Shown one piece after another: positions 1,960 to 23,682 of a DNA stretch of 26,525 nt. Within the stretch, counting starts at the first letter, position 1, and every line of letters begins with the position of its first letter. Source of the DNA: a virus; the IMG/VR virus record IMGVR_UViG_3300025115_000049, positions 1-26,525 of that record, one strand, 5' to 3'. Below the pieces are notes generated by a model. The model searched no databases. It had not been told where the DNA came from and saw only the letters and a program-made list of their open reading frames with translations. The position numbers were made by a program, and so were the translations under genes.

Positions 1960-2862
1960 CTACTTTGTGTCCACATATCCCACGACCGCATGTGCTCCGC
2001 AGTTTATATCCGGAGATTCCTTATCCGAAAGGTGATCCGGTATACGGCCGATGAGTTGGTTTAGGAAATATTCGGCAGCTCTATCGGCAATGTTTTTGAT
2101 ACATGGTAAATTATGGTGCTTTGTGTACTCATCCTGAAAGGCCATAGAGATGTTATCCCGCCAAGGCCGGTAGTAGTCTGGATCGGACCTTAGAGCCGTA
2201 ATTAGAGCATCCACCGGGCTAACAGCCATAATGTGTATCGTTGCGCCTGTAATATAAAGCTTCTGTTCCGGGGATACTGTACCACACATGCTAGCAGATG
2301 CATTGAAACACAGTACGTCACGTATACCATCACTAAAGGACATGGATCCGTCGCCAATACCTACAGAACCTAAGTTATAGTTGTCTCCGGACACAGGTGG
2401 GTGTTGATTACCGAGCTTATTGGTATATTCCTTACGTATACCATCACTAAAGGACATGGATCCGTCGCCAATACCTACAGAACCTAAGTTATAGTTGTCT
2501 CCGGACACAGGTGGGTGTTGATTACCGAGCTTATTAGTATATTCCTTGATTTCATTGGCTATAGATTGCTGGGTGATTCTATCATTTGGTTCAAAGGTGT
2601 GTTTCTCAAGTATATCAACAATGGTTTCGTTAAGCCTATCTAAATTTGCCATCGGTTTCCAATCAGATAAAGTGAGTTCCGACCAAGCAAGGGGATCCTT
2701 GGACTTCACTGCGATCAATTCGGCCCGAACTTCCGCTTCCACCTTAGTCAAATCTTCTTCTACAGATTTTGTCCATGCGGCACAGTATACTGGATTTGTA
2801 TCCGAGTCTACATTCTCATTGAGTTTGACACCCACTTTACTTCCAATTAGATCCTCAAACAT
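1960..2862 (-). CDS. hypothetical protein with MFEDLI N-terminus and internal tandem duplication
   Basis: A 300-residue unknown protein. It starts MFEDLIGSKV behind a GGAGGTAG ribosome site, one base after the DUF488-like gene. Residues from about 25 to 105 look helical and acidic. The centre holds two copies of a 38-residue unit starting EYTNKLGNQH and containing NLGSVGIGDGSMSF. The C-terminal third (A-V-S-P-V-D-A-L-I-T-A-L, then a helical part ending N-Q-L-I-G-R-I-P-D-H-L) has no recognised motif. The duplication is exactly in frame and nearly identical at DNA level, so it is recent. Function unknown. It could be a virion or internal protein, since Leu-Asn-Glu at residues 14-16 resembles the head-protease site used elsewhere in this phage, but this is weak. 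Confidence 0.75.
   Translation of the reverse strand: MFEDLIGSKVGVKLNENVDSDTNPVYCAAWTKSVEEDLTKVEAEVRAELIAVKSKDPLAWSELTLSDWKPMANLDRLNETIVDILEKHTFEPNDRITQQSIANEIKEYTNKLGNQHPPVSGDNYNLGSVGIGDGSMSFSDGIRKEYTNKLGNQHPPVSGDNYNLGSVGIGDGSMSFSDGIRDVLCFNASASMCGTVSPEQKLYITGATIHIMAVSPVDALITALRSDPDYYRPWRDNISMAFQDEYTKHHNLPCIKNIADRAAEYFLNQLIGRIPDHLSDKESPDINCGAHAVVGYVDTK
2320..2547. repeat. in-frame 114-bp tandem duplication (2 copies)
   Basis: Copies 2320-2433 and 2434-2547 are identical except for one base (G at 2422, A at 2536), which is synonymous (Thr ACC/ACT) in the minus-strand gene. The period is 114 bases, or 38 codons, so the reading frame is preserved. Near-identity points to a recent duplication or active expansion and contraction; a collapsed or expanded assembly is possible. 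Confidence 0.97.
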
Positions 2863-3215: not shown

Positions 3216-6200
3216 TCAATCAGTTTTCCTAAGCAATTCTCCGACGAAGCTTAGGAGCTGCTCTCCACACTGGTCACAGTAACCGTGTTCTGCCAGCTTG
3301 GCCAAGGCATCTGTCCTACGCTTCTTGCTTTTCTCATTGGCCACAGCCGTCTTATCTGCAATGGTCAATGAGACCACGTTCTTTAGGTCAGAAATGAGCT
3401 TCTTCTCAATGGCCTCCTTGAGCGGAGCATAATCATTGAATGTGAAGGGCCTACCTTGCTCCAGCAGGGTGCTCTTATACACGAAGATGTTGTTCCGGAA
3501 CTCTTTCCGTGAGTTTATAGGCACCCCAATGATCTCCTCAATAGACCTCATAAGTTTTTCATCAGGATCACTATATTCGCCAAGGATACTGTCCAACACC
3601 TTCTCATTCTTGCAAAACGCCTTGGCATTCATTACATAGTTCTCAAATAGAGACTGGGCCTGCTCCTCATAAGCGACCAGGAAGGCCATATTAACCTCCT
3701 TCTTGGCGATCTGCTTATACTCGTAGGCCACTGAATCCTTCTCACCCAGGAGCATGATTTCAATGTATTTCTTCTGCAATTCATCCGTGATGCCGATCTG
3801 ATGGCTAAAGTTTTCCCGTAGGCTCCGGATAATATCAATCGGGTTGACACACTTCTTGTCCTCTTTCATACCCAGAGCGACATTCAATGCATTGATGATG
3901 AACCTGGGTGAAATGCCGGTCATACCCTCTCCGGCGGCCCGGCCTTCCTGTCGCAGAGTCTTAACATCCAGCTCAGCCTTCCTCATTTCTTCCGTAACTT
4001 CACCGTTATAAATTCTCATTTTTTCCAACAGGGATGGAACCTTAGTGGAAGGTGTAAGCCTGGTAAGCACGGCAAACTGTGCCGCGATCCGTAATGTATG
4101 CGGAGCGATATGGATGCCTTTGAAATCGGACTCCCGGATCATCTTTTCATAAATCTTGATTTCATCATTTACCACCACATTCCAAGGCACCTGGATGGGG
4201 TACATCCGGTCATGCAGGGCCTCATTCTTTTTGTCAGCCTTGAAAGAGTCAAACTCATTGGAATTTGTGTGACTAAGTATCAGTTCATCCACATAGATAT
4301 GGGGAAAGCCCGGTGTCTTGATAACCTGCTCCTGTGCCACTGTAATGAATACATATAGAAGCTTGGTGTCACAGTTATGGTTTATAAAACCGTTACCACA
4401 GTAAGCATGACGGTCAGAGTTAATTACCAGGTCATAGACCCTTTCCTTTGGCAAAGATGTAATGGACTCAACGGTATCATAGAAATAGTCCAGGCTGTAT
4501 AGGTCCCACAGTTCCGTTACATCGGTAAAATTTTCCAGTGACCTTATGACATTTTCGGCAAGGTTATAGGACACATGCCCATTGGATATTGCGTTCCTGA
4601 AAGAGCCTTTATCAACATCACATAGGTTGTACTTGATAGTGAATCCGGACTTCACCGCTCTTCTATATGCCTCCTCCATGTTTCCGTACAAGGGGAACAC
4701 ATGTTTATAGGAACGTTCCTGGTATTGAATCTCATCACTGATTTTGTCCAACTTTGACTGTTTCACCCGGCATGTGAATCCAATGTGTTTCCGAAATAGT
4801 ACCACATCTGCCCCGGTGATATTCAAGTGATAGTAATACCTATCGTACTCCTTATTGTACACCTTTGATATTTTGCAGATAATTCCAAATTTTAGCAGCA
4901 TGAACTGTATTTGGTGTGTAAGTTCCTGTGACGCGGAGCAACATCCTACACGATCACATGTAACAGTACCATCACCTGTAAAATATGCGGACAGGAACGA
5001 TGCTACCACCTTCTTAGGAGACCGCAGTATAGACCATGGTATAACCTTCTCGCTCGCGTGATGGAAATCAAATCCAAGCCACATTATGATTTTTTTGAGA
5101 TGGGTGGATGTGAGATAGCTGTTAGTTTTATCACATGCATAACGTAACCCCATGTTCTCGGTAAGACGTTTTACATCATTTCTGATATCACGGTCCATGT
5201 TGGCAATGGAAAATCCATTACCATGGAAAGAGCCTTCGGAAATCAAGTAACCCATTAGTCTTCCCATATCCTCATCGACATATTTCGGAAGACGAACAAC
5301 ACGGGGCAACCTTACAGAGTCGCCCAATAATGACATAATATCCCTGTTGTATAATCGACCCACACTGCAACCAACGGCTTTGGCGACCTCTTTCATTGTC
5401 ATACCGCTTTTATAGAGCCGGACAGCTTCATCCATATCAACGTTTTTCCGGTAAACGTAGTCCTGATTATGGGAACGATGATTGGAACGTTGATAGTGTA
5501 ATAGTTTCTCCGGATATTCGACAAACGTTTCACTATCATAATTGTCGAGCCTTTGAATCGGTATAAAATCGTCCGATCTTATATCCTGTAAGGCAACCCA
5601 ATCGAGTTTTCCAAACCTAACAACCTGGATTCTATGATCTTTTGATCCTTTGAGTCTATAACCCTTACCGGTTACTAGCTCCATGATTTCTTTCTCACCT
5701 TGGTCTACGGTGGTGATAGATTCCACTGTATTCGATCCATCATATACCTTTGTGTTTCCGGTTATATCGGCTATACAGAAAACACCATTTTCTGTTACCA
5801 CCAATGTATCACCTGTAACACACTTTAAAAGCTCAATCGATTCCAATATACCACCGTTCCCTACCTCCAGCTCCCCATCAAACTGATAGGCCCGTGGGTC
5901 CGTTTCACCAAACCTGGAAATCTTGGCCAAGTTAACCCGGCCAATAAGTTCCGATACATCTTGACTTTTTGGGTCCGCTGGCTGAAAGGTTCCAATTCCC
6001 AACCGCTTCTGTTCACTGAACCGGACTTGCTCCACCGGTACATCTTCCCACCGGATATGGCCATCCATACCCTTATACTCATTCTCAACAGTAAAGAGGC
6101 ACTGTGGACAAAGGTGTCCCTCTATCTTTAGACCCAGCATCTCTTGCCACTTGGGCCGGTCTGCATTGGGTATAAGGTGCAGTGGTTCCTCATGCAACGG

Positions 6201-6632
6201 GCACCCCTTGATTACATACTTAGGGGTCTTATCTGCCTCCAGCCCTTTCTTGATAAGTGATGCCAGTGTTGACTTACCAGAGGATACTGGTCCCACAAGA
6301 ATAAGGATACGCTTGCCGGTCTCTGTCCGCCTGGCAGCTGCTTTCAGGAACCTCATGATGTCATGCACCGGTTCATAGGTACCATATATCCTATTGTCAA
6401 AAAACTTGTACCGAACAATGTCCTCATAGCCCAATGTCTTGCAGGTGTCAGGCAGGGCTTCGGTACCATAGGCCATAATCATGTTGTAAATGCGTTCAGG
6501 TGCTGTACAGGCTATACCAGGATTGTCTTTTACCAAACCAAGGTATTCGATCATGGTGCCTGTCCATAGTGTGTTGTCTACTGCCTTTCTCTGTTCCAGA
6601 ATGATTTGCTTGAAATCCAGGTTGTCGTTCAC
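3216..6632 (-). CDS. prkA: PrkA-type AAA+ serine protein kinase, interrupted by an intein
   Basis: The precursor has 1138 residues; removing the intein (271-753) leaves a 655-residue protein, the size of bacterial PrkA/YeaG (about 630-645). N-terminal PrkA AAA domain: Walker A GPVSSGKST at 114-122, the paired-Cys stretches G-C-P-L-H-E-E-P-L and H-L-C-P-Q-C, and GNGGILESIELLK (258-270), which leads into the intein. After the intein, IYVDELILSHTNSNEF and the helical C-terminal PrkA domain (R-S-L-R-E-N-F, then GYCDQCGEQLL near the end) follow. Bacterial PrkA is a cytoplasmic stress or starvation-linked kinase; its bacterial partners SpoVR and YeaH are not seen here. Ribosome site AAGGAG precedes the ATG. 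The role in a phage is unknown; host phosphorylation or an AAA+ remodelling function are guesses. Confidence 0.93.
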   Translation of the reverse strand: MNDNLDFKQIILEQRKAVDNTLWTGTMIEYLGLVKDNPGIACTAPERIYNMIMAYGTEALPDTCKTLGYEDIVRYKFFDNRIYGTYEPVHDIMRFLKAAARRTETGKRILILVGPVSSGKSTLASLIKKGLEADKTPKYVIKGCPLHEEPLHLIPNADRPKWQEMLGLKIEGHLCPQCLFTVENEYKGMDGHIRWEDVPVEQVRFSEQKRLGIGTFQPADPKSQDVSELIGRVNLAKISRFGETDPRAYQFDGELEVGNGGILESIELLKCVTGDTLVVTENGVFCIADITGNTKVYDGSNTVESITTVDQGEKEIMELVTGKGYRLKGSKDHRIQVVRFGKLDWVALQDIRSDDFIPIQRLDNYDSETFVEYPEKLLHYQRSNHRSHNQDYVYRKNVDMDEAVRLYKSGMTMKEVAKAVGCSVGRLYNRDIMSLLGDSVRLPRVVRLPKYVDEDMGRLMGYLISEGSFHGNGFSIANMDRDIRNDVKRLTENMGLRYACDKTNSYLTSTHLKKIIMWLGFDFHHASEKVIPWSILRSPKKVVASFLSAYFTGDGTVTCDRVGCCSASQELTHQIQFMLLKFGIICKISKVYNKEYDRYYYHLNITGADVVLFRKHIGFTCRVKQSKLDKISDEIQYQERSYKHVFPLYGNMEEAYRRAVKSGFTIKYNLCDVDKGSFRNAISNGHVSYNLAENVIRSLENFTDVTELWDLYSLDYFYDTVESITSLPKERVYDLVINSDRHAYCGNGFINHNCDTKLLYVFITVAQEQVIKTPGFPHIYVDELILSHTNSNEFDSFKADKKNEALHDRMYPIQVPWNVVVNDEIKIYEKMIRESDFKGIHIAPHTLRIAAQFAVLTRLTPSTKVPSLLEKMRIYNGEVTEEMRKAELDVKTLRQEGRAAGEGMTGISPRFIINALNVALGMKEDKKCVNPIDIIRSLRENFSHQIGITDELQKKYIEIMLLGEKDSVAYEYKQIAKKEVNMAFLVAYEEQAQSLFENYVMNAKAFCKNEKVLDSILGEYSDPDEKLMRSIEEIIGVPINSRKEFRNNIFVYKSTLLEQGRPFTFNDYAPLKEAIEKKLISDLKNVVSLTIADKTAVANEKSKKRRTDALAKLAEHGYCDQCGEQLLSFVGELLRKTD
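4374..5822 (-). other. intein in PrkA, LAGLIDADG homing type (483 aa)
   Basis: Precursor residues 271-753. The N-terminal splice block starts at Cys271 (CVTGDTLVV); block B is GSKDHRIQVV with its conserved D-H. The C-terminal block ends in INHN followed by Cys as the +1 extein residue, so the penultimate His and terminal Asn are intact. A helix-turn-helix-like segment (T-M-K-E-V-A-K-A-V-G-C-S) lies at intein residues 142-153. Two LAGLIDADG-type helices follow: LMGYLISEGSF (189-199) and VASFLSAYFTGDGTV (273-287), both with acidic residues. All elements look intact, so splicing and homing are probably functional. The joined extein reads ELLK-CDTKLLYVF, continuous with PrkA family sequence. Confidence 0.95.
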
Positions 6633-9660: not shown

Positions 9661-10896
9661 TTACGCCGGTAGGTTGACCACCGCCACACGTTGGTAGTAA
9701 TTGTTGCTGCCGAAGATCGAGCTATGGATTGCATATCGGCTAAGCAACCCAACGGTAGGCTGGAAGCTCTGCTCGAACACGGTCTTGCTGACCATCAGGC
9801 TTACATAAGGCAGGAAGATAATTCCTGCATCATATTCGCTAGGTCCCTTATACCCAACCGTTGCGTAGTCACTGGTGGCGAATGTATCCCGGTATACGGA
9901 GATACGGCCATCAAGGCTACCAACTTTGGATACACCGGAGACCAGTGAGTTTATCTCACCAGGAACCGGAGCAAGGATGAACGAGGAGAGGCTTTCCAGG
10001 GCTGCTACTGTCATTGGTGAGCAGATAACAAAGTTACCAGCGCCCCGACGGGTATTGATGGCGATAAGGTTGGCCTTACGCACGATCATACTGTATAGGG
10101 TCCGGAACTTTTCAACCTGCCACCGACCATCGGCCTGAGTGGAGCTTGCATAGTCCCAGGATGAAGAAACGGCCGCGCTGTTGACTGCATTGACGATTTC
10201 TCTGTCGATTTCGGCAGTGATTTCGTATGCCAGCATGTCCATCATTTCTTCTTCCAGGTCAAGCCCGTGCATGGCTTTCAGGTCCTGAGCAACTTCCAGA
10301 GACCAACGGCTACGTAACTTACGGGTCTTGGCTTCTACCTGCGCTTTTTCCACTGTCATGTTGACTTCTGCGATCTGTGCATACGTACCGATACCGAGAC
10401 CTTGTTCAAGGTGACCAGCGGAGGTCGTTGCATAGGATCCCAAAAGTTCACCAGCGGACGTCAGCCAACCAGCTGAAAGCGTAGAGTCACCAGAGTACCA
10501 TGGGTCAATGTTGTTATACCCAAGCTCATCGTTATACGTAGGCGTGGTTGAGCCATACGGAAGAGCCTGACGGGTATAGGTGTTACCCGACCGGAAACGG
10601 AGGGCGAATGCCAGACCAACGGGCCCTGTCATAGGCTGAACGCCAACGATCTCATGAGCTACCAACTCAGGGAAGGTTCTGCGTACCATTGGGATGGCGA
10701 TCTGGTGGAAATCACCAGAGGTTGCGTATGTATTGGGCGCATTACGACCAATTACGCTGTAGTTACCGGCTTCATTCAGGTAATTGAACTCATTCTCCAG
10801 CATGAGCGCGGTAGCCTTTTTGACCTTAGGATTCTTAATAGGGGCACCCTCATCGAGAATCTCGGTCCATTTGGTTACTAACTGTTTAAGGTCCAT
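9661..10896 (-). CDS. 23: major capsid protein precursor (gp23)
   Basis: A 411-residue T4-type major head protein. Recognisable family blocks are Q-I-A-I-P-M-V-R-R-T-F-P-E-L, A-H-E-I-V-G-V-Q-P-M-T-G-P-V-G-L and A-L-R-F-R-S-G around residues 64-106. The N-terminal propeptide contains FNYLNE followed by A-G-N-Y-S-V-I-G; cleavage after Glu42 would fit the (L/I)-X-E rule of the T4 gp21 protease and give a mature protein of about 369 residues. A second possible site is I-L-D-E at 13-16. AGGAGG precedes the ATG. It lies 16 bases after the scaffold gene, at the end of the late head operon, and ends before a strong terminator. Confidence 0.95.
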   Translation of the reverse strand: MDLKQLVTKWTEILDEGAPIKNPKVKKATALMLENEFNYLNEAGNYSVIGRNAPNTYATSGDFHQIAIPMVRRTFPELVAHEIVGVQPMTGPVGLAFALRFRSGNTYTRQALPYGSTTPTYNDELGYNNIDPWYSGDSTLSAGWLTSAGELLGSYATTSAGHLEQGLGIGTYAQIAEVNMTVEKAQVEAKTRKLRSRWSLEVAQDLKAMHGLDLEEEMMDMLAYEITAEIDREIVNAVNSAAVSSSWDYASSTQADGRWQVEKFRTLYSMIVRKANLIAINTRRGAGNFVICSPMTVAALESLSSFILAPVPGEINSLVSGVSKVGSLDGRISVYRDTFATSDYATVGYKGPSEYDAGIIFLPYVSLMVSKTVFEQSFQPTVGLLSRYAIHSSIFGSNNYYQRVAVVNLPA

Positions 10897-10912: not shown

Positions 10913-11797
10913 TTATATCTTGTTCTCTTTCAGAATTGTGATCCACCGTTGTTTGATCCGGTCAAACGGGTTTACTTCCTCGACTACTGGTTCCTTAGTC
11001 TCTGGATCTACCACCGCATTACCGGTTCCATTACCAGCTGGATCGATACTGGCAACTAAATCCTCCGCCTTGGCTCCGCATTCCGAGCACACATTGTCCT
11101 CGCCTTCTTTCACGGAGTAGGTTTTGCCGCAGGTCTTACAAGTGACTACATCAGACTTGGCTTCACCTGCTGGAATCTCAGGGGTTTCATCTTCCTTGAT
11201 GACATGGTCAACAACAAAGTCAAACTTCTTGTCAATCTCGGCCTTGCTTCTTAGGTCACCTAGCAGACCAACAACCTTGATCCTCTTGGCTTCGGAGAGA
11301 CCCTCACACTTCCTCTGAATATAAAGCTGTGATGCCATTTCTTTGGCGTCGCTTTCAAGCTCCATGTTCTTAGAGGTGAGTTCATTGGTCTGATCCTTCA
11401 GTTTGAGGATTTCATCCTTCGCTTCCTTCAACAGAGACTTCACATCATCCGAGAGAACTCCCTCATCAATGGCTAATCTCTTTTTGAAATCTTCGATCAG
11501 GTCATTGTACAGCTCACCCTTCTTGGCAAATTCCATAACTCTCTCAGGAATCTGAAGCTCCTCGTCGAGTACCGAGTCAACAAAATTTGAGAACTTGGAA
11601 GTGATGTCCTTCTTGTATTCATCAAATTTGGTCTCATACTCCTCAACAAGCCGCTCTTTTTCCTCAGACACTATGGAGTCCGCTCGTTCCCTGGCCTTCA
11701 CATCGATCAGCATTTCCAGTTTTTCAACCAGAAGTGTCTGCTGGGCCTCGTCCAGGGTGTTGATGCCCAAAATCTTTTTGATCTCTTCTATATTCAT
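10913..11797 (-). CDS. 22: prohead core scaffold protein (gp22) with zinc ribbon
   Basis: A highly charged, helical 294-residue protein located directly before gp23, as gp22 is in T4. Residues 1-200 are mostly coiled-coil-like (E/K-rich heptads), and several L-x-E triplets (T-L-D-E, V-L-D-E) could be gp21 cleavage sites, as expected for a scaffold degraded during maturation. Residues 218-242 carry a zinc ribbon, C-K-T-C...C-S-E-C (Cys 220, 223, 237, 240), which I do not know from T4 gp22. The C-terminus N-P-F-D-R-I-K-Q-R-W may bind capsid protein. The start is the ATG at 11797, six bases after AGGAGG; a TTG two codons earlier is less likely. Confidence 0.85.
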   Translation of the reverse strand: MNIEEIKKILGINTLDEAQQTLLVEKLEMLIDVKARERADSIVSEEKERLVEEYETKFDEYKKDITSKFSNFVDSVLDEELQIPERVMEFAKKGELYNDLIEDFKKRLAIDEGVLSDDVKSLLKEAKDEILKLKDQTNELTSKNMELESDAKEMASQLYIQRKCEGLSEAKRIKVVGLLGDLRSKAEIDKKFDFVVDHVIKEDETPEIPAGEAKSDVVTCKTCGKTYSVKEGEDNVCSECGAKAEDLVASIDPAGNGTGNAVVDPETKEPVVEEVNPFDRIKQRWITILKENKI

Positions 11798-11837
11798 GAG
11801 CAACCTCCTGTTGTATTTGGACTTATTTCTGACGTGT

Positions 11838-12043: not shown

Positions 12044-12334
12044 CTAGGATTTGGCAAAAGCCTTCAGTGTGGCTCTGACATCCTTGGCGTCTGGGTGCCG
12101 CCATGATGACAGGTTATTCAAGATATACAGGCATTGCACGGCCAGCTCATGTCCGGTCATGCCTAAGGCTGCCTTGCAATAATTTACAGCATAATTGAGT
12201 GATGTGTTATATGATTTCCGGTCATCAAGTATCTTTTCTATGGCAAGCCGGACCTCATCCTCTGTGACTTTGGCCTCGGTGATTACGGCACCATGTTTTA
12301 CATCCATCATATAATCTTTATCATATAGGTCCAT
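12044..12334 (-). CDS. candidate internal head protein, leader type B (MDLYDKDY)
   Basis: A 96-residue protein inserted between gp21 and gp22. It begins MDLYDKDYMMDVKH, almost the same leader as gene 12574-12798 (MDLYQKDYIADVKH), after which the sequences diverge. The leader is followed by A-V-I-T-E/A-K, an (I/L)-X-E site of the type cut by T4 gp21, which would release the first 20 residues. The body is helical (E-D-E-V-R-L-A-I-E-K-I-L, then an Ala/Leu-rich pair of helices) with a basic C-terminus K-A-F-A-K-S. AAGGAG precedes the ATG. Proposed: a protein targeted into the prohead and processed there; body function unknown. Confidence 0.7.
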   Translation of the reverse strand: MDLYDKDYMMDVKHGAVITEAKVTEDEVRLAIEKILDDRKSYNTSLNYAVNYCKAALGMTGHELAVQCLYILNNLSSWRHPDAKDVRATLKAFAKS

Positions 12335-12360
12335 GTTATATCTCCTTATGTTGACCGGTT

Positions 12361-12549
12361 CTACTTTTTCTTTATAATGCGGAGCTTCTTTTCCTGTAGG
12401 TTGAAATCATATACACTGTCGTCTGGTGGTGGATACTCTTTGTTCATTTGGGTCATTATATCCTCAATGAGGTCCGCACTTATACTCATCTGCTTGATCA
12501 TTTTTAGGAACTTTTGGTCCTTCTTATATTGGTCAAGTAGACCGGTCAT
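12361..12549 (-). CDS. small basic-tailed protein, 62 aa
   Basis: A 62-residue unknown protein in the extra gene cluster between gp21 and gp22. It starts MTGLLDQYKKDQKF and is helical up to about residue 38, followed by a proline turn (E-Y-P-P-P-D-D) and a basic end (K-K-L-R-I-I-K-K-K). AGGAG is correctly placed before the ATG. It contains a potential L-I-E/D head-protease triplet near residue 28, but does not share leader A or B. Neighbours suggest a head-associated role; nothing more can be said. Confidence 0.62.
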   Translation of the reverse strand: MTGLLDQYKKDQKFLKMIKQMSISADLIEDIMTQMNKEYPPPDDSVYDFNLQEKKLRIIKKK

Positions 12550-12573
12550 GTGTGCTCCTGTTGAATCAAATTG

Positions 12574-12798
12574 TCATAGTTTACTAATCACCTTTTCAAA
12601 AGCTAATAGGTCCTTCTTGAGCCTCATATACAGGTCGTCAACATTCTTGAAAAGCTTATGACCAGGATCCATGTGGCACATGAAGTCAAACAGCTTTTCC
12701 AGGTAAGCGTATGTTTCACCGGACATCTGGTGGGGACTATTGCCTTCACTAACCTGGTGTTTGACATCCGCTATGTAGTCCTTTTGGTATAGGTCCAT
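12574..12798 (-). CDS. candidate internal head protein, leader B with body alpha
   Basis: A 74-residue protein. Residues 1-14, MDLYQKDYIADVKH, match the leader of gene 12044-12334. The C-terminal half (V-D-D-L-Y-M-R-L-K-K-D-L-L-A-F-E-K-V) clearly resembles the C-terminal half of gene 13052-13267 (V-D-R-L-Y-A-R-I-R-K-D-L-I-T-F-N-N-M), which carries a different leader. The protein therefore combines the leader of one paralogue with the body of another. A V-S-E triplet at 16-18 is a poorer match to the gp21 rule. Its ATG overlaps the upstream stop by one base (TAATG), implying coupled translation. Confidence 0.68.
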   Translation of the reverse strand: MDLYQKDYIADVKHQVSEGNSPHQMSGETYAYLEKLFDFMCHMDPGHKLFKNVDDLYMRLKKDLLAFEKVISKL

Positions 12799-13037
12799 TA
12801 TAAATAGTCACCCATATCAGCCTCAGCCCATCCTTTATCATATCCATCCCGGTAAGCGTTTTCCAATACATCATCCAGAGCAGCATTGAAATCTTTTGGC
12901 TTGGCTATCGAGGCTATAAGTTTTGCAACTGCCTTTTTTGTATGACCTGAATATTTCATACTAAGTGGAGAAGCTTTGGCCTCATTAAGGTACCTATCGA
13001 TTTTATTGGTTATTATATGTTCCTCTCCTCTACCCAT
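12798..13037 (-). CDS. candidate internal head protein, leader A with body beta; start codon uncertain
   Basis: From the ATG at 13037 the product has 79 residues and reads MGRGEEHIITNKIDRYLNE/A. The ITNKIDRYLNE leader is identical to that of gene 13052-13267, but the codon aligned with that gene's ATG is ATA (13016-13014) here. The good ribosome site (GAGGAGAGGAAC) sits before the ATA, not before the ATG at 13037. Either translation starts at a non-standard ATA, giving 72 residues, or at the weak upstream ATG. The body (K-A-V-A-K-L-I-A-S-I-A-K-P-K-D-F, then E-N-A-Y-R-D-G-Y-D-K-G-W-A-E) is unrelated to the sister protein. Y-L-N-E fits head-protease cleavage. Confidence 0.62.
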   Translation of the reverse strand: MGRGEEHIITNKIDRYLNEAKASPLSMKYSGHTKKAVAKLIASIAKPKDFNAALDDVLENAYRDGYDKGWAEADMGDYL

Positions 13038-13051
13038 GAATTAGATTGTAA

Positions 13052-13267
13052 TCACCATTCTTCTACCATATTGTTAAAAGTGATCAAATCTTTTCTGATT
13101 CTAGCATATAATCTATCCACTTCATTGAAATCTTTAGGATATTTGCTTGTGTGCTCCATAAAAATTTTCAATAATGCCAGTGTACGAGCCACATCTGTTG
13201 TTATTTCTTCTGGTGAAATTCTACTAGGGCCTTCATTCAGGTACCTATCAATCTTATTGGTTATCAT
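13052..13267 (-). CDS. candidate internal head protein, leader A with body alpha
   Basis: A 71-residue protein starting MITNKIDRYLNE/G. The start at 13267 is secure: GGGAGG stands correctly before it and the ATG overlaps the gp21 protease stop by ATGA, so the protein is translated coupled to the very protease expected to process it. The leader ends in Y-L-N-E, the same four residues as at the predicted maturation site of this phage's capsid protein. The body is helical (E-I-T-T-D-V-A-R-T-L-A-L-L-K) and shares its C-terminal half with gene 12574-12798. Proposed: packaged internal or core protein, by analogy with T4 internal proteins, whose ten-residue leaders are removed by gp21. Confidence 0.72.
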   Translation of the reverse strand: MITNKIDRYLNEGPSRISPEEITTDVARTLALLKIFMEHTSKYPKDFNEVDRLYARIRKDLITFNNMVEEW

Positions 13268-13872
13268 ATGTTCCTCCCTATGTTTTCCAGTACTTGCCAT
13301 ACATGCTTGTAATAGGCTGACTTTGCCTCTTTTAACCTAATCGCCGGATCAATTACCGGCTCTACAATTGGTACGTTAAACTCCGCGCCCTCGTATATTC
13401 CTTTCATCCATGAAGGAGGATTTGATGGCCCAAGTACCACATCCCAACACAGGAGGTTGAAGTCATCATTCACATAGCTATCGGTTTCATTGACTGTACC
13501 AAGTCCTCTGGACGATATACCAACCTTACCTTCCCTAATAAGTGTTTTGGTTATATTACCCATAGGTGTATCGAGAACTTTTGCCTTTCCGTGAACATCA
13601 TTATTAACCCAATTGAGGCTCTCAATGAGTATAGCGATTCTATCCGGATTGATTGTTGGTTTTTCCGGGTGACCAAGTTCCCCCCAAGCGCACTTGCCTT
13701 CTACGGCGGCCATATACTTGTTGATCTCACGGTCCAATATGGCCCGCTTATATCTCCGGCCGTTCTCATTCATTATATCGGCGGATGAAAATACACCCTC
13801 AATGAATACATTACCGGAGCCCTCCGGTTCGTGCCATTTGACATCGAACCTATCCTCAGTGATTAACTTCAT
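13264..13872 (-). CDS. 21: prohead maturation protease (gp21)
   Basis: A 202-residue serine protease of the T4 gp21/herpesvirus assemblin-like clan, slightly shorter than T4 gp21 (212). Diagnostic blocks: V-F-I-E-G-V-F-S-S-A-D-I (22-33), the catalytic His68 in G-E-L-G-H-P, and the catalytic Ser within I-S-S-R-G-L-G (119-125). It acts inside the prohead, cutting scaffold, capsid protein and packaged small proteins after (L/I)-X-E. Its own C-terminal R-L-K-E/A-K may be a self-cleavage site. GAGGAG precedes the ATG. It sits in the T4-like order after gp67 and gp68 and overlaps the next small gene by ATGA. Confidence 0.93.
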   Translation of the reverse strand: MKLITEDRFDVKWHEPEGSGNVFIEGVFSSADIMNENGRRYKRAILDREINKYMAAVEGKCAWGELGHPEKPTINPDRIAILIESLNWVNNDVHGKAKVLDTPMGNITKTLIREGKVGISSRGLGTVNETDSYVNDDFNLLCWDVVLGPSNPPSWMKGIYEGAEFNVPIVEPVIDPAIRLKEAKSAYYKHVWQVLENIGRNI

Positions 13873-14171: not shown

Positions 14172-14444
14172 TTATTTCCTCCTTAATGATCTCCGTGTTC
14201 TTTTTGGCGGTTCTGGCTCCGGATCAGGCTCTACTTCCGGATCAATGTCCTCCGGTTCGTTTACTTGTGGTGTAACACTGGTCACAGGCAGGTTCATTAC
14301 ATCACCTGTGAGTCCCAGCTTGGCCTTAACATACTCGTTCTTGGCTACCTTGATCTGGCCCGTAAGCTTATCCTTTGCATCCACAAAATTCTCGGCCTCG
14401 AAATCATCCAACGCTGATTTGATTACCTCTTGGTCCATCGGCAT
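14172..14444 (-). CDS. 67: gp67-like prohead core protein
   Basis: A 90-residue protein directly after the portal gene, as gp67 is in T4 (80 residues). The N-terminal half (V-I-K-S-A-L-D-D-F-E-A-E-N-F-V-D-A-K-D-K-L, then A-K-N-E-Y-V-K-A-K-L-G-L) resembles the helical part of T4-type gp67. The C-terminus is acidic and proline-rich (E-P-E-D-I-D-P-E-V-E-P-D-P-E-P-E) ending in a basic tail K-R-T-R-R-S-L-R-R-K. The ATG at 14444 is chosen because GGAGG stands eight bases before it; the upstream TTG in frame overlaps that ribosome site. Two late boxes precede the gene. Confidence 0.75.
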   Translation of the reverse strand: MPMDQEVIKSALDDFEAENFVDAKDKLTGQIKVAKNEYVKAKLGLTGDVMNLPVTSVTPQVNEPEDIDPEVEPDPEPEPPKRTRRSLRRK

Positions 14445-14463
14445 AACAGTTTCCTCCAAATTT

Positions 14464-14485
14464 TATTTATACAAACCTATTTATA
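14464..14485 (-). promoter_or_regulatory. paired T4-type late promoter boxes
   Basis: Two exact TATAAATA boxes on the minus strand (14464-14471 and 14478-14485), 14 bases apart, directly before the gp67-like gene; the second overlaps the portal stop codon. Two identical boxes in tandem are unlikely by chance and suggest strong late transcription of gp67, gp68, gp21 and the small internal-protein genes. Confidence 0.78.
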
Positions 14486-17324
14486 CAACCTCACTGGTTG
14501 GCTCTTCCTCAATAGGAGCCTCTTGTGGCTCCTGGGCTCCAGGTTGGCCTCCATTAAACATATTCATACCAGTAGCTTCCTCTGCCTGTGGAAAATATCT
14601 CTTATCCAACTCATGGCCTTTCTTATTGTCCTCAAAATCCTTCTCATCCCAGTTCAAATATTTCCTCATAAGGAACGATTTGGAAAACTCAGGGCTATCT
14701 TTCATGGCATTATAGTTAGCAAATTCCATCTCCATGAATGACTGTTCCATGGACTCGTGGTAATTAGATGGTGGATTCATTTCAATGGACATACTGTTAT
14801 AGTCCAGGTTATACTCTTTCTTTATTCCCCTGAACTCTAAATGGAGCAAGAACAACCTGAGAAACTCATCACAGAATATTCTCTGCTGGCGCTCCAGGAA
14901 CATAGCCCACTTGATCTCATCACGGGAGATTTGGTTGGCTTGGCCACCGAACATAACCTCTTCACCCTTCTCGGCGCCCTGTGTTACACGGGAAATGGGG
15001 TACTTGAGGGCCCGAAACAGCTTCCTGGCAAAATAGTATACATCATCCAGCTCAGTGAAGCCCTTCGCGTTACCCCCGATGGTCTCTATTGTGGATCCAC
15101 GACCATCGCTATTTTTTACAAACACACCACAGGCCAAGGCGAAATTATGGTTCTCACCAGGATCTTTGATGGTGAGACAGCCAACATCTGCCTTTTCGGC
15201 TAGGAACTCAACAGAAGCGACCTTGTGGTTTATTGTCACATTATGCTTGAACTCGGTGTAGGTGTTGAAGCCGAAGCCTAATTTGATGATCTTCAAAAGG
15301 TACTTGTTTCCTAACACATATTTATCATTTCCTCTTGCGCCGTTTAGTAGTTTCCAATGTTTTACAAAACCAGGATTTTTGTTTAAAGCGACACCCAGAC
15401 TTGACAAGTTAGGAGAGTTACCCCTTATATATTCCAAGACGAAGTAATGACAACACTTTTCATCAATTTTTATAGGAGGTCTACCGTCTCTTTTTAACAT
15501 AGCCTCTTGGAACACTTTCTGGTACTCAGGATCCTGATGTTTTTTCAACATTGTTGCGCTGGTGGCTTGTTTATGTTTTTGGTTTTTTGGCCTGGACACA
15601 AGCATGTGAAAGTGATCATATTGATCTATCCATCTTTGCCTCATTAGGTCACCTTGCTTCTTCCTATTTTCCGGATTGGCAAAATATTCCTTTTTGGACT
15701 TAGAGACCGCTTCTCTCTGGCGCTGTCTTACCTCAGGAACATTCAACGCTTTCAGAGGAGCTAAATGGGACTGGCGTTCCTTATTGGTGCTAACATGGTA
15801 CTGTATATGCTCATGTATAGGCATGGAAACCAGGTTATCAGGATTGTTATTGTGCCTGTTGAAGTCTTTATGGTGTATAACGTTCCCATGTTTTGCTTTA
15901 GGTCCAAAAACTCTATGTGCATACTTCCAACTTTCGTCTTCCAAATCAAAGAGCACAGTGTAATCATTGGAGTTTTTATTCATTTTCCTCTTGTCCAGGT
16001 AGAGGGGCATTACACTGTCGCCGGTTTTGAGGTTTTGTGCCTGGACCTCTGAGCCATCTCTCATAACAAATTTATGATCTGGGGTACAATCTACGGACTC
16101 GCCATTATCCAGTGTTACACGGACCATCGGGGAGTCTTTCCTGGTAATACCTGCCCACTCTATCTCACCATGACCAATTTTACCAGTTTTTTGGTCCACG
16201 GTGTAAACATAGTTGGTCTTACCGGACTCATATTCGGAGATGATCTCCGACAGTAATAGCTTCCGGCCGTCTACCAGTGTGACTCCAGTGCTAAGTTGAA
16301 AACACCCAACGGGGACATAAAAATTTTCTTGGAGGTTCATGATTTCCGGCTCTTGGCTCAAGGCGCCTGTAAGGGGGTTGAAGGTTTGCTTCTTGACAAA
16401 CTTCTGCTTGATCTTCTCCACGTACTTGATAGACTTATCACGGGGCATATTACCAGTATCAATCTTGAACACAAATCTTTCAGGGGACCTAACCAGCCTG
16501 TATATGACCACGGAGGTTTCCAGGAGCTTTAGCTGGTTATATGGTACCTTGGCCTTTTCCAGGTAACCCAGTATCTCATACCTTGTCTTACCATATATAC
16601 CATAGTTGATGAAGCCGACCTGTTCTGGATTGAATATAACCAGTGCATTTTTATTTGCCTGGATAAATTTTTCTGCCTCCATTCTATTCAGAGGACGTCG
16701 GATGCTAGGTGCCAGGTATTGATAGAAGGTAGTTATACGGCCGTTGATAGGATTCAACTCATAGTCCATGGTTTCCGATGGCAGGCGCTTTATGTTGATG
16801 ATGCCACTGGATAGCTTATTGGGGTTGATAATGCGTTCATAGTATAACCGGCCATCAATAAAATATGTCCGGACCATGTCCCATAGGTTATCATTTATAT
16901 CAATGCGCTCAAAGAATAAGGTTTCAAACTCTCTCAGGAGAACCTTGCGGATATTCTCATTGGACTTGAGTTTTTCATCTATAATGTTCAGGCTGATAAT
17001 GTTGAGGTTCTCATCCACCTTACAGGACTCATTGGTGGCATCTTCTATAACATCACCAATTTCTGGATATTCAGCCATGACCCTGTAATTATTGATCCTG
17101 GCCAACTCGGTTTCATATGCTCTATTGATGAAGGTGTTGAAGAAGGAGTTATAGCCCATGAGACCCTGATGTCCGGTCATCTGGAGTAAAGCAACATCCT
17201 CCACACCTTCACCGGACTGAAGCAGCCATTCTTTATCGGTTAGAGCATCGTCACCCCTTTTTTGGAACGCCTTAGTGGACTCATCTATCCTATTGGTTCC
17301 TACCAAGAAATCATACCATGCCAT
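14481..17324 (-). CDS. 20: portal protein (gp20) interrupted by an intein
   Basis: The 947-residue precursor contains a 398-residue intein; the spliced protein has 549 residues (T4 gp20: 524). T4-type portal signatures: F-F-N-T-F-I-N-R-A-Y-E-T-E-L-A-R and P-E-I-G-D-V-I-E-D-A-T-N-E (about 60-100), V-E-K-I-K-Q-K-F-V (302-310), and after the intein D-G-R-G-S-T-I-E-T-I-G-G-N, matching the T4 W-x-P-R-x-D-G-x-R-G-T-E-I-x-T-L-P-G-G block. It forms the dodecameric head vertex channel that nucleates the prohead and docks the terminase. The ATG at 17324 has AAGGA seven bases before it and lies five bases after the upstream stop; an earlier in-frame start would overlap that gene. The C-terminus is acidic. 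Confidence 0.94.
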   Translation of the reverse strand: MAWYDFLVGTNRIDESTKAFQKRGDDALTDKEWLLQSGEGVEDVALLQMTGHQGLMGYNSFFNTFINRAYETELARINNYRVMAEYPEIGDVIEDATNESCKVDENLNIISLNIIDEKLKSNENIRKVLLREFETLFFERIDINDNLWDMVRTYFIDGRLYYERIINPNKLSSGIINIKRLPSETMDYELNPINGRITTFYQYLAPSIRRPLNRMEAEKFIQANKNALVIFNPEQVGFINYGIYGKTRYEILGYLEKAKVPYNQLKLLETSVVIYRLVRSPERFVFKIDTGNMPRDKSIKYVEKIKQKFVKKQTFNPLTGALSQEPEIMNLQENFYVPVGCFQLSTGVTLVDGRKLLLSEIISEYESGKTNYVYTVDQKTGKIGHGEIEWAGITRKDSPMVRVTLDNGESVDCTPDHKFVMRDGSEVQAQNLKTGDSVMPLYLDKRKMNKNSNDYTVLFDLEDESWKYAHRVFGPKAKHGNVIHHKDFNRHNNNPDNLVSMPIHEHIQYHVSTNKERQSHLAPLKALNVPEVRQRQREAVSKSKKEYFANPENRKKQGDLMRQRWIDQYDHFHMLVSRPKNQKHKQATSATMLKKHQDPEYQKVFQEAMLKRDGRPPIKIDEKCCHYFVLEYIRGNSPNLSSLGVALNKNPGFVKHWKLLNGARGNDKYVLGNKYLLKIIKLGFGFNTYTEFKHNVTINHKVASVEFLAEKADVGCLTIKDPGENHNFALACGVFVKNSDGRGSTIETIGGNAKGFTELDDVYYFARKLFRALKYPISRVTQGAEKGEEVMFGGQANQISRDEIKWAMFLERQQRIFCDEFLRLFLLHLEFRGIKKEYNLDYNSMSIEMNPPSNYHESMEQSFMEMEFANYNAMKDSPEFSKSFLMRKYLNWDEKDFEDNKKGHELDKRYFPQAEEATGMNMFNGGQPGAQEPQEAPIEEEPTSEVV
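15111..16304 (-). other. intein in portal protein, HNH homing type (398 aa)
   Basis: Precursor residues 341-738. It starts at Cys341 (CFQLSTGVTLVDG), has block B V-D-C-T-P-D-H-K-F, and ends N-F-A-L-A-C-G-V-F-V-K-N followed by Ser as the +1 residue. The terminal Asn is present but the usual penultimate His is Lys. An HNH nuclease lies at intein residues 140-170 (G-N-V-I-H-H-K-D-F-N-R-H-N-N-N-P-D-N-L), followed by a Lys/Arg-rich DNA-binding stretch (about 190-280) with NUMOD-like pieces. The joined extein reads F-Y-V-P-V-G/S-D-G-R-G-S-T, continuous with the portal family. It is unrelated to the PrkA intein, so the two were gained independently. Confidence 0.94.
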
Positions 17325-17328
17325 ATTC

Positions 17329-17694
17329 TTATCCTTCCAGTTTTTTAACTTCCTCAGACTCACCGGTTATCTTGCGTCTGTGGATGATCTGCTCCCGCTT
17401 CCTCACAAAAGATTCAATGTCTATGTTGGCAGCGCGACCAAGTATTTCAGCTACCGCTTGAACCCACACATTTTCATTCCGCATTTCTTCCTGGACTGCT
17501 TGGACACCAACAAGCCGGTTATACAGCTCCTGGACCATGAGAAAGGTTCTTATTGGAGCACAATCGGCCACGAGTACCGGCTGGCCCGTATTCAACTCAG
17601 ATGGCTTCCACCAAGATTCAATGAAGTTGGGACATTTGCCATCCGTGAGTCCCCACCAATAACATTCACCCTTTTTACAAGTATTCTGAATCAC
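17329..17694 (-). CDS. hypothetical Cys/Trp-rich protein, GTG start
   Basis: A 121-residue unknown protein. The N-terminal third has C-K-K-G-E-C-Y-W-W-G, G-K-C-P-N and a further Cys in V-A-D-C-A-P (four cysteines in about 45 residues), which could bind a metal. The rest is helical (F-L-M-V-Q-E-L-Y-N-R-L-V, then V-Q-A-V-A-E-I-L-G-R) with a basic segment R-K-R-E-Q-I-I-H-R-R-K. The start is GTG, with GAGGTGA a few bases upstream. It ends four bases before the portal ATG, so it is co-transcribed with head genes. Function unknown. Confidence 0.7.
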   Translation of the reverse strand: MIQNTCKKGECYWWGLTDGKCPNFIESWWKPSELNTGQPVLVADCAPIRTFLMVQELYNRLVGVQAVQEEMRNENVWVQAVAEILGRAANIDIESFVRKREQIIHRRKITGESEEVKKLEG

Positions 17695-19800: not shown

Positions 19801-20130
19801 TTATTCTTCCTTAGCCTTCTGGGCTTTTCGGCGCTTGGCTTTGGATCTTGGGTAGTTCTGATTGGCCTCTACGTCCTGTTCGGCTTCCTTCTCAGTTTTA
19901 CCCTTGCCCCGCCAGTATGTACTCGATTTCCAGGTATCTATGGCCCTGGCGCAATATCTCTTGGCACCATCATCACCCAGCTCATCATCCATAGAGGCCA
20001 CACATTTGTCAAAGAAGCCCTTTTCATCTGGCATGATTCCATGGTTTTTACCCCAGGTCTTAACCCACCGAATCATGCGTTCCGTCTCTTCCTCATTGAT
20101 CATCCGTCTGATCTTTTCAACAGTGTTCAT
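19801..20130 (-). CDS. small protein with head-protease-like leader and basic tail
   Basis: A 109-residue protein. The N-terminus MNTVEKIRRMINE/E resembles leader A of the head cluster (K-I-x-R-x-(L/I)-N-E) and ends in an (I/L)-X-E triplet. The body is helical with Trp/Arg features (M-I-R-W-V-K-T-W-G-K-N-H-G-I, D-D-G-A-K-R-Y-C-A-R-A-I). The C-terminal 20 residues are strongly basic (R-S-K-A-K-R-R-K-A-Q-K-A-K), which would suit binding packaged DNA. Its ATG overlaps the upstream stop by ATGA. It might be a further internal or virion protein; the leader match is shorter than in the head cluster, so this is tentative. Confidence 0.68.
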   Translation of the reverse strand: MNTVEKIRRMINEEETERMIRWVKTWGKNHGIMPDEKGFFDKCVASMDDELGDDGAKRYCARAIDTWKSSTYWRGKGKTEKEAEQDVEANQNYPRSKAKRRKAQKAKEE

Positions 20131-21883: not shown

Positions 21884-22819
21884 TTAGTATTTCAAGCTGT
21901 CCAGTTCCTTCAGTAAGTCCGTTTCTGACTCACCTGATTCACTTGGAGTGAAGTCTGGAACATCTTCTTCCTTCGGCTTGGTTGCCGTGGTAGACTTGGT
22001 TGATGGCTCCTCCTGAACACCATGATGCTTCTCCCACTCTCGCTGGATCAACTGGAAAAGCCCTTCGGATACCAAGGTATCCTTGATCCACTTATCATCT
22101 TTTTTCATGGAATTGATGTGGTCATCGATGGAATGGGTGCTATCCATGATGGCCTTGATTTCCTTGTCAGACCCCAAGGCGGTTGCCTTACGGCTAAACG
22201 CTGAAGATGCATAGTCTGGAAAGGTTCTCTTGTCTGCGTCGGGTTTGGTGGTTTTGACCTTGATGATGAAATTATGGCCATTTTCTGTCGGATCCCATGC
22301 AGCCTCCCTCAAGCCTTCCTTCTCATCTTCCTCAGCCACCAGCTTTTCATTGATCTTACCAGGCAGCTCATAGATTTTAACCTTGCCGGCAGACTTGGAA
22401 TTATCATCATTGGCGTTTTTGTCCCGTGGGTCCTCGGTGATGTAGAAATTGGCTGCGAAGCGTTCCTTGCGTCGTAGCTCCCGCGCCGTTTTCTTATCCT
22501 CAGGCGTGCCGTTATAAAGCATACTCACGGTATTGCAGACTGGACACCAGTTGCCGAACTCATGCGTCTTGGGGCACAGCATATTGTACCATTTGTCGCC
22601 CGATCTCCACATGTGGTAAAAGAACTTCTTGGATAGGGTCCCGTTCTTGTCCGGCAAGAACCGGCCCTCATATACGATTGGTTCATCCTGCGTGCCGGCT
22701 TGAAGTGCTGTCCAAACCTTATCTGACCGATTCATTCTTGGCGTCTGCTGTACCTTCTCTTTTTCCCTGTTTTCCAAATGTTTTGCAAACATTTCCTTCG
22801 TGATCCATCGACTTGACAT
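21884..22819 (-). CDS. 32: single-stranded DNA-binding protein (gp32)
   Basis: A 311-residue protein (T4 gp32: 301). It coats single-stranded DNA in replication, recombination and repair. The zinc site is visible: H69 in F-Y-H-M-W, then L-C82-P-K-T-H86 and W-C92-P-V-C95. The N-terminal basic helix (about 1-30) would be the cooperativity domain. The OB-fold core includes R-F-A-A-N-F-Y-I-T-E-D-P and G-K-V-K-I-Y-E-L-P-G-K-I. A Ser/Thr/Pro linker leads to an acidic tail ending D-L-L-K-E-L-D-S-L-K-Y, as in T4, where the tail binds replication partners. AAAGGAGA precedes the ATG. Confidence 0.93.
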   Translation of the reverse strand: MSSRWITKEMFAKHLENREKEKVQQTPRMNRSDKVWTALQAGTQDEPIVYEGRFLPDKNGTLSKKFFYHMWRSGDKWYNMLCPKTHEFGNWCPVCNTVSMLYNGTPEDKKTARELRRKERFAANFYITEDPRDKNANDDNSKSAGKVKIYELPGKINEKLVAEEDEKEGLREAAWDPTENGHNFIIKVKTTKPDADKRTFPDYASSAFSRKATALGSDKEIKAIMDSTHSIDDHINSMKKDDKWIKDTLVSEGLFQLIQREWEKHHGVQEEPSTKSTTATKPKEEDVPDFTPSESGESETDLLKELDSLKY

Positions 22820-22847: not shown

Positions 22848-23591
22848 TCATACCATGTTACCGTTTGGTTGTAAACGTTGTTTTGATTTTATGTTACTCC
22901 GTCTACTTTCATGACTGAGTTCTACGGCCTTTCGCATATGTTTCTTACCCTCTGGTGTATTGGCGCGCCTTTTAGCGGATATACTCATTTTTCTACGTGT
23001 CTCATCACTTTTGGGTTTCCTCATTTTCTGTCTTGTCTCCATTGAGCGTTTTGAGCCATAATTTGGTGAAAGCTCACCTCTCAACCCATACATAGGATGT
23101 TTCTCGCCGCGTTTCGCTAGGCTAAGTTTTTGACGTTCTTCTTCAGACCTAACACGGTTCCTGGCCGTATCGGCTCTATCCTTCTTGAATTGTTCGGTAT
23201 GGTGATGACCATAAAATGGGTTGTTAGCTCCCATTCTTTGTTCACTTAGACGTTTTTTCAGTTCTTCGGAATACACCCTTTCATGTCCACCATAATTCAT
23301 ATTATAGCCTTTACCATGATCTATAATGGTGTCATATACAAGTATATAGTGTTTTTCCATTTCATTCAGTTCATCTCTTGAGTTACATATATGAATTTGC
23401 TCAATGATGAAATTTTCAATACCGTATTTTCTGATTGATTTGTATAATGGATAGGGCTTACCGCGCCTTGCACACTTTTTATGATCCGTCCATCGATACT
23501 TCATTTTGTTGGTTGTTTGTCCCACATACTTTTTCAAATTGACCAGGCATGTGATGAGGTAAATAATTCCATACGGTTTGGTTGATTCCAT
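22848..23591 (-). CDS. GIY-YIG homing endonuclease with NUMOD3 repeats
   Basis: A 247-residue free-standing nuclease. The GIY-YIG catalytic domain lies at about 1-95: G-I-I-Y-L-I-T...K-Y-V-G-Q-T, then Y-R-W-T-D-H-K and E-K-H-Y-I. After Y-N-M-N-Y-G-G come several NUMOD3-type DNA-binding modules (G-A-N-N-P-F-Y-G, G-E-K-H-P-M-Y-G, L-S-P-N-Y-G-S) and a basic helical tail (S-D-E-T-R-R-K-M-S). The start at 23591 has GGAGG nine bases upstream. It lies next to gene 32, as T4 segG (also GIY-YIG) does. An exact late box stands about 90 bases upstream. Some 28 codons upstream of the ATG stay open in frame and look protein-like, but lack a start with a ribosome site. Confidence 0.92.
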   Translation of the reverse strand: MESTKPYGIIYLITCLVNLKKYVGQTTNKMKYRWTDHKKCARRGKPYPLYKSIRKYGIENFIIEQIHICNSRDELNEMEKHYILVYDTIIDHGKGYNMNYGGHERVYSEELKKRLSEQRMGANNPFYGHHHTEQFKKDRADTARNRVRSEEERQKLSLAKRGEKHPMYGLRGELSPNYGSKRSMETRQKMRKPKSDETRRKMSISAKRRANTPEGKKHMRKAVELSHESRRSNIKSKQRLQPNGNMV

Positions 23592-23682
23592 GTGACTTTG
23601 CCTCCATAAATAGGTTGGAGAGGACAGCAGCATTGCCTCAGCTGTTTCCGGTGTGACCCAATCACCCGGATTACTCTCATTC

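Follow-up and report, generated by a model that had tools for sequence, protein, structure and literature searches.

Small genes between the prohead protease and scaffold genes of an uncultured T4-like virus very probably encode internal head proteins with shuffled cargo behind capsid-targeting leaders

Why do neighbouring small genes in a viral head operon share the beginnings of their products in front of mostly unrelated remainders, and what might these beginnings do? We addressed this question in a 26.5-kb window, by which we mean the whole stretch of DNA analysed, from an IMG/VR virus record, with a head cluster of T4 type encoded on its minus strand (Table 1). The phage encodes both a gp21-family protease and a gp22-type scaffold, and five small genes (12044-13267) occupy the interval between them; all open reading frames (ORFs) that a sequence-only reading had described were found, on the minus strand and with the same coordinates. 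Gene starts in the head operon overlap or abut the preceding stops, the start of o72 overlapping the gp21 stop (ATGA), and the window contains seven predicted late-type promoter boxes compared with 1.36 expected. The T4 genome has only ~30 nt between genes 21 and 22, and its ip genes are located outside the 20-24 head cluster.

Table 1. Features of the head cluster and of the small-gene interval, in window coordinates.
Feature	Position	Strand	Remarks
Portal gp20	14481-17363	-	head cluster; interrupted by an intein
Two T4-type late promoter boxes	14464-14485	-	TATAAATA; upstream of head operon
gp67-like core protein gene	14172-14459	-	head cluster
g68, gene in gp68 position, 93 aa	13885-14166	-	leader A variant MIIDKIDNYLNE and body
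Prohead protease gp21 (Peptidase_S77)	13264-13872	-	PF03420, E = 3.4e-32; presumed processing enzyme
44-nt direct repeat, copy 2	13233-13276	-	ribosome site and leader A of o72; 91% identical to copy 1
Leader A of o72	13232-13267	-	31/36 nt the same as the o79 copy
o72, 71 aa	13052-13267	-	leader A (MITNKIDRYLNE) with predicted cleavage after E12; helical body in common with o74
44-nt direct repeat, copy 1	12982-13025	-	ribosome site and leader A of o79; 91% identical to copy 2
o79, 79 aa	12798-13037	-	leader A at 12981-13016, first codon ATA; unrelated body
48-nt direct repeat, copy 2	12758-12805	-	leader B of o74; 73% identical to copy 1
o74, 74 aa	12574-12798	-	leader B (MDLYQKDYIADVKH); body homologous to o72
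o62, 62 aa	12361-12549	-	possible degenerate leader B (LLDQYKKDQKFLK), weak; unrelated body
48-nt direct repeat, copy 1	12294-12341	-	leader B of o96; 73% identical to copy 2
o96, 96 aa	12044-12334	-	leader B (MDLYDKDYMMDVKH), then ITE↓A at residues 18-20; unrelated body
Scaffold gp22 (T4_CASP)	10913-11803	-	T4_CASP, E = 5.6e-10; presumed leader-binding core
Major capsid protein gp23	9661-10896	-	inferred maturation site FNYLNE↓AGNYS

Several other features of the window were recorded. The intein of the gp20 gene has an HNH-like domain, and gp20 of one relative (L002) also has intein/endonuclease-like ORFs; a PrkA-type serine kinase gene (3216-6632, minus strand) is split by an intein with a LAGLIDADG domain, and a GIY-YIG/NUMOD3 homing endonuclease gene (22848-23633, minus strand) adjoins a gp32-like gene (21884-22819). 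A 300-aa ORF (1960-2862, minus strand) contains a near-exact in-frame tandem duplication of ~38 residues (EYTNKLGNQHPPVSGDNYNLGSVGIGDGSMSFSDGIR), and long low-complexity repeats that are open on both strands (24840-26412; P/E/D-rich on the minus strand, V/P-rich on the plus strand) probably represent one repetitive structural protein.

The sequence-only reading had proposed a modular system in which at least two leaders, A and B, are combined with different bodies, and this was largely borne out by the significance of the body homology and by recurrent leaders with different cargo in relatives. BLASTP aligned the bodies of o72 and o74 with 35.8 bits, and with the leaders removed their similarity remained significant (Smith-Waterman score of 79 versus 21.6 ± 4.6 for shuffles, reached by 0/2000; Gumbel p = 5.9e-8). 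The remaining body pairs were near background in the leader-less comparison, with the marginal exception of o96 and the gp67-like gene at 14172 (uncorrected p = 0.0012). The scores of the leader A pair (o72/o79) and of the leader B pair (o74/o96) were reached by only 0-2 of 2085 unrelated N-termini, and leaders A and B compared with each other were at background, their score being reached by 934 of the 2085. The claim that o79 joins leader A to an unrelated body thus held, with the leader above controls and the body at background; the corresponding claim for leader B on o96 was upheld for the leader, and for the body apart from the marginal gp67-like pair. The carriers listed in that reading, A on o72 and o79 and B on o74 and o96, were correct, but g68 was missed, in which leader A recurs as MIIDKIDNYLNE ahead of a body that is conserved among the closest relatives. 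Leader B (MDLYxKDYxxDVKH) is present also in the closest relative, L056, and in both classes an N-terminal tag of ~10-20 residues is common to unrelated bodies.

Because o72 shares its tag with o79 and its body with o74, which in turn shares its tag with o96, duplication and divergence alone are insufficient to account for the arrangement, o72/o74 being the one clean case in the window of the same body behind different leaders. The 44-nt and 48-nt pairs are the clear leader repeats of the locus. In the leader A copies of o72 and o79, every codon difference beyond the start is a synonymous third-position change, and the 44-nt repeat ends at the predicted cleavage site. The proposal of recombination at near-identical 5′ ends is supported at leader A (44 nt, 91%), where tags and bodies would have recombined within one genome, a presumed event rather than one that was seen. 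Because the ATG that starts leader A is replaced by ATA in o79 (13016-13014), the true start of this gene is uncertain. The ATG of the o79 ORF at 13037 has no ribosome site, and the leader has either a seven-residue N-terminal extension or a non-standard start codon.

In T4, gp21 cuts after L/I-x-E and the internal proteins carry a capsid-targeting sequence (CTS) of 10-19 residues that ends in such a site (PMC9026906). With cuts placed by the published motif, the T4 sequences read MKTYQEFIAE↓A in IPIII, MAKINELLRE↓S in gp24 and ...STITE↓A in IPI. A position profile of the leader, [KR]-[IY]-[DE]-[KE]-Y-L-x-E, which was trained on relatives only and cross-validated, ranked 29 of the 60 leaders held out of training beyond the 99th percentile of a control set of 2040 N-termini; on this relatives-only profile the leaders of o72 and o79 exceeded all 2040 controls and that of g68 was in the top 0.6%. 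The profile also picked the N-termini of several gp23 proteins. A 109-aa protein encoded elsewhere in the window (19801-20130, minus strand), with the N-terminus MNTVEKIRRMINEEE and a basic C-terminus, might be another tagged head protein but scored poorly on the profile.

Among 53 interval genes of relatives that were unselected by motif, L/I-x-E was present within residues 5-30 in 44, compared with 12 for residues 35-60 and 18.9 ± 3.3 for shuffles; L/I-x-D and two wrong-spacing controls gave no excess in the same genes, and few further L/I-x-E sites were located inside the bodies. Leader A ends in YLNE in o72, o79 and g68. In the gp23 proteins of the clade, Y-[LIF]-x-E, in which 12 relatives all keep Y39 and E42, marks the expected maturation site, and the inferred site of the window gp23, FNYLNE↓A, has the same ending as leader A. 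Because of the N-terminal excess of L/I-x-E and this shared ending, leader A is with high probability a capsid-targeting propeptide. The "targeting tags" of the sequence-only reading can thus be specified, from the profile and the motif excess, as likely T4-type capsid-targeting propeptides with a prohead-protease site.

Relatives were collected by gp23 scans (58, then further loci) and by one addition from genome contigs, yielding, after removal of redundancy, 60 loci in which the gp21-gp22 interval could be identified. This interval holds between zero and eight small genes, the eight small ORFs being those of L071; small ORFs were present in 32 of the 60 loci and at least one profile-positive leader in 27. 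A short interval without a small gene, which counts against our preferred reading, was found in 27 of 60. The interval bodies belong to many unrelated families, and near-identical leaders precede unrelated bodies inside single contigs (L071, L096, L090 and L061). Relatives therefore show what had been suggested as a check: at one locus, conserved leaders are followed by differing cargo. Two candidate leader swaps, the tandem paralogues of L097 and the body group of L086/L134 versus L096/L107, were rejected as such, since leader decay or divergence fits them too.

A recurrent cargo family with a body of ~42 residues and the motifs W..W and EFP.GS was found behind varied tags at ten loci (L094, L116, L097, L086, L134, L093, L085, L074, L080 and L082), and in L085 a whole extra segment is inserted between tag and body. 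The structural model of one of the relatives' families consists of a disordered linker followed by a compact strand-strand-helix-strand body. Elsewhere in these loci, gp21 of L062 and L063 (3975-5645) is split by an insert of ~1.1 kb, perhaps a mobile intron or intein, and upstream of its main gp23, L101 has a second, diverged gp23-like match (39%; 735-1763) that could be a gp24-type paralogue. The contig that carries the head cluster of L116, in which one gene is tagged, was assigned to the MAG of a Thermoplasmata archaeon, which is probably due to binning.

The five small genes had no Pfam or PHROGs match at a meaningful score, and the relatives' cargo had next to nothing in either collection; one candidate, L088:2011-2547, looked like a 2H-phosphoesterase, which the family search did not support. 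Neither o72 nor o74 had relatives in viral contigs by direct search, nor did the o74 protein match any of 50,697 annotated phage records, and these bodies are therefore orphans. AlphaFold2 modelled o74 as a two-helix body (pLDDT of about 80) with a low-confidence leader; Foldseek returned no significant match for this model among viral proteins or for the relatives' "WW" body model in the PDB. The bodies also lack matches to the T4 internal proteins at a meaningful score, although homology to IPI, IPII or IPIII bodies is not a defining property, as T-even internal proteins differ among themselves.

Our preferred explanation, which we hold to be very probable, is that the products of the small genes are internal head proteins of T4 type, with capsid-targeting propeptides and shuffled cargo. 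The modularity, its significance and recurrence, the motif enrichment, the match to the gp23 site and the location within a set of head genes that has late promoter boxes are all observed; for packaging, cleavage, ejection and body functions, we infer the following course. By analogy with T4, the leader would bind the gp22 scaffold core and thereby bring the protein into the growing prohead; gp21 would then cut after the Glu of L/I-x-E (RYLNE↓ in leader A), the leader peptide would be lost, and the mature body would stay in the head with the DNA and probably be ejected into the host. Different bodies would have different jobs, in counter-defence or takeover by analogy with IPI and Alt of T4, and some might serve the core instead. 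T4 IPI is a precedent for counter-defence. Since the ribosome site and the 12-16 codons of the tag form a self-contained 5′ unit, recombination between tags would have joined new bodies to existing tags and moved existing bodies to different tags. The bodies in the window are not obviously basic, unlike those of the T4 internal proteins, which counts against this explanation, as do their lack of family matches, the missing L/I-x-E at the end of leader B and the uncertain start of o79.

The small genes stand in tandem and their leader differences are mostly synonymous, a pattern that whole-gene tandem duplication could also produce if the bodies diverged fast and the leader stayed under purifying selection, without any shuffling; relatives with diverged leaders, such as the L086/L134 versus L096/L107 bodies, fit this as well. 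We consider such a history quite improbable, given that the homologous bodies of o72 and o74 follow unrelated leaders, each shared with another gene, and that the o72/o79 repeat, including the ribosome site and synonymous positions, is 91% identical over 44 nt ahead of unrelated bodies. The conserved 5′ ends might instead be translational or regulatory RNA elements (ribosome sites, coupling or a repressor site) with no peptide signal, and the repeat does take in the ribosome site, while starts overlap preceding stops. However, the differences inside the leader are synonymous, so that the peptide is what is kept; its pattern persists in relatives with different codons, L/I-x-E is position-specific and requires the right spacing, and gp23 N-termini match the same profile, which together make this reading highly improbable.

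More weight goes to the idea that the small genes are extra scaffold or core components (gp67/gp68-like) that are degraded in the prohead rather than injected, which we consider unlikely although it keeps a real chance. The genes sit between core genes, g68 bears leader A in the gp68 position, o96 is weakly similar to gp67 (uncorrected p = 0.0012), and some relatives have acidic bodies; however, the bodies turn over among relatives whereas gp67 and gp22 are conserved, many relatives have no such gene at all, and further L/I-x-E sites are scarce in the bodies.

Within the preferred reading of tagged internal head proteins, leader B requires separate treatment. It has Asp at the predicted cut position (YIAD or YMMD) and no L/I-x-E at the tag end, and it performed poorly on the leader profile (o74, 20% of controls; o96, 4% of controls); downstream of it, ITE is present in o96 and only VSE in o74. 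Because leader B occurs in the same operon, precedes a body of the same family as that of a leader-A gene and generally resembles the T4 IPIII tag, it may also be a targeting tag, which we propose less firmly than for leader A. An Asp at position 10 of the CTS leaves T4 IPIII targeted but unprocessed (PMC9026906), and therefore the bodies behind leader B may stay uncut at that point; o96 may be cut later, by analogy with IPI, at ITE↓A (residue 20). It is rather unlikely that the two tags differ in such a way that A is cut and its cargo injected while B targets without processing and its body is retained in the head or core. If true, one body family swapped between A and B would amount to a switch between an injected and a retained form.

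Like IPI, IPII and IPIII of T4, the products described here are small proteins with a short N-terminal tag, which in the leader A genes ends in L/I-x-E as the 10-19-residue T4 tags do, in a phage with gp21, gp22 and gp23, and they combine a conserved tag with diverse bodies (PMC9026906, PMC3012670); o96 shares ITE↓A with IPI. Unlike the T4 ip genes, which lie outside the head cluster, up to eight genes are inserted between 21 and 22, and the tags (KIDRYLNE and MDLYxKDYxxD) and bodies differ from those of the T4 proteins. Short N-terminal propeptides cut by gp21 are also present in T4 gp68, gp24 and gp22, and MAKINELLRE↓S of gp24 resembles KIDRYLNE, but these are core or shell proteins and not exchangeable small cargo. 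In phiKZ and SPN3US (gp53/gp54), paralogous head proteins have identical N-terminal propeptides and diverged mature parts and are cut C-terminal to Glu (PMC5694885); the giant phages differ in their S/A-x-E or A-x-E motif, propeptides mostly of ~100 residues and large ejection proteins, whereas the leaders here have 12-20 aa and L/I-x-E.

As far as the citing account conveys it, T-even internal proteins are diverse and share only the CTS (Repoila et al. 1994, as cited in PMC3012670), so the combination of conserved tag and diverse cargo was already known, and the exchange of cargo behind a tag appears to parallel this polymorphism (PMC3012670). The T-even case concerns close relatives in Enterobacteriaceae, whereas ours involves an uncultured distant clade, two tag classes and putative exchange within one genome. 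New are the location of the array within the head operon, the clade, the apparent within-genome swapping and tag B with Asp at the cut position; in the incomplete literature searched, we found neither an array between genes 21 and 22 nor its spread through an uncultured clade, and no pair of tag classes or within-genome recombination of tag and body. Because the cargo array is easy to locate, occupying a fixed site between the genes for protease and scaffold, and is marked by the leader, candidates for phage proteins that are packaged in the virion and probably injected, counter-defence factors among them, can be harvested from metagenomes without homology. The principle, known from a few E. 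coli T-even phages, is thus extended to a wide uncultured T4-like clade, in which leader B provides a natural setting for testing the Asp substitution that, in T4, separates targeting from cleavage.
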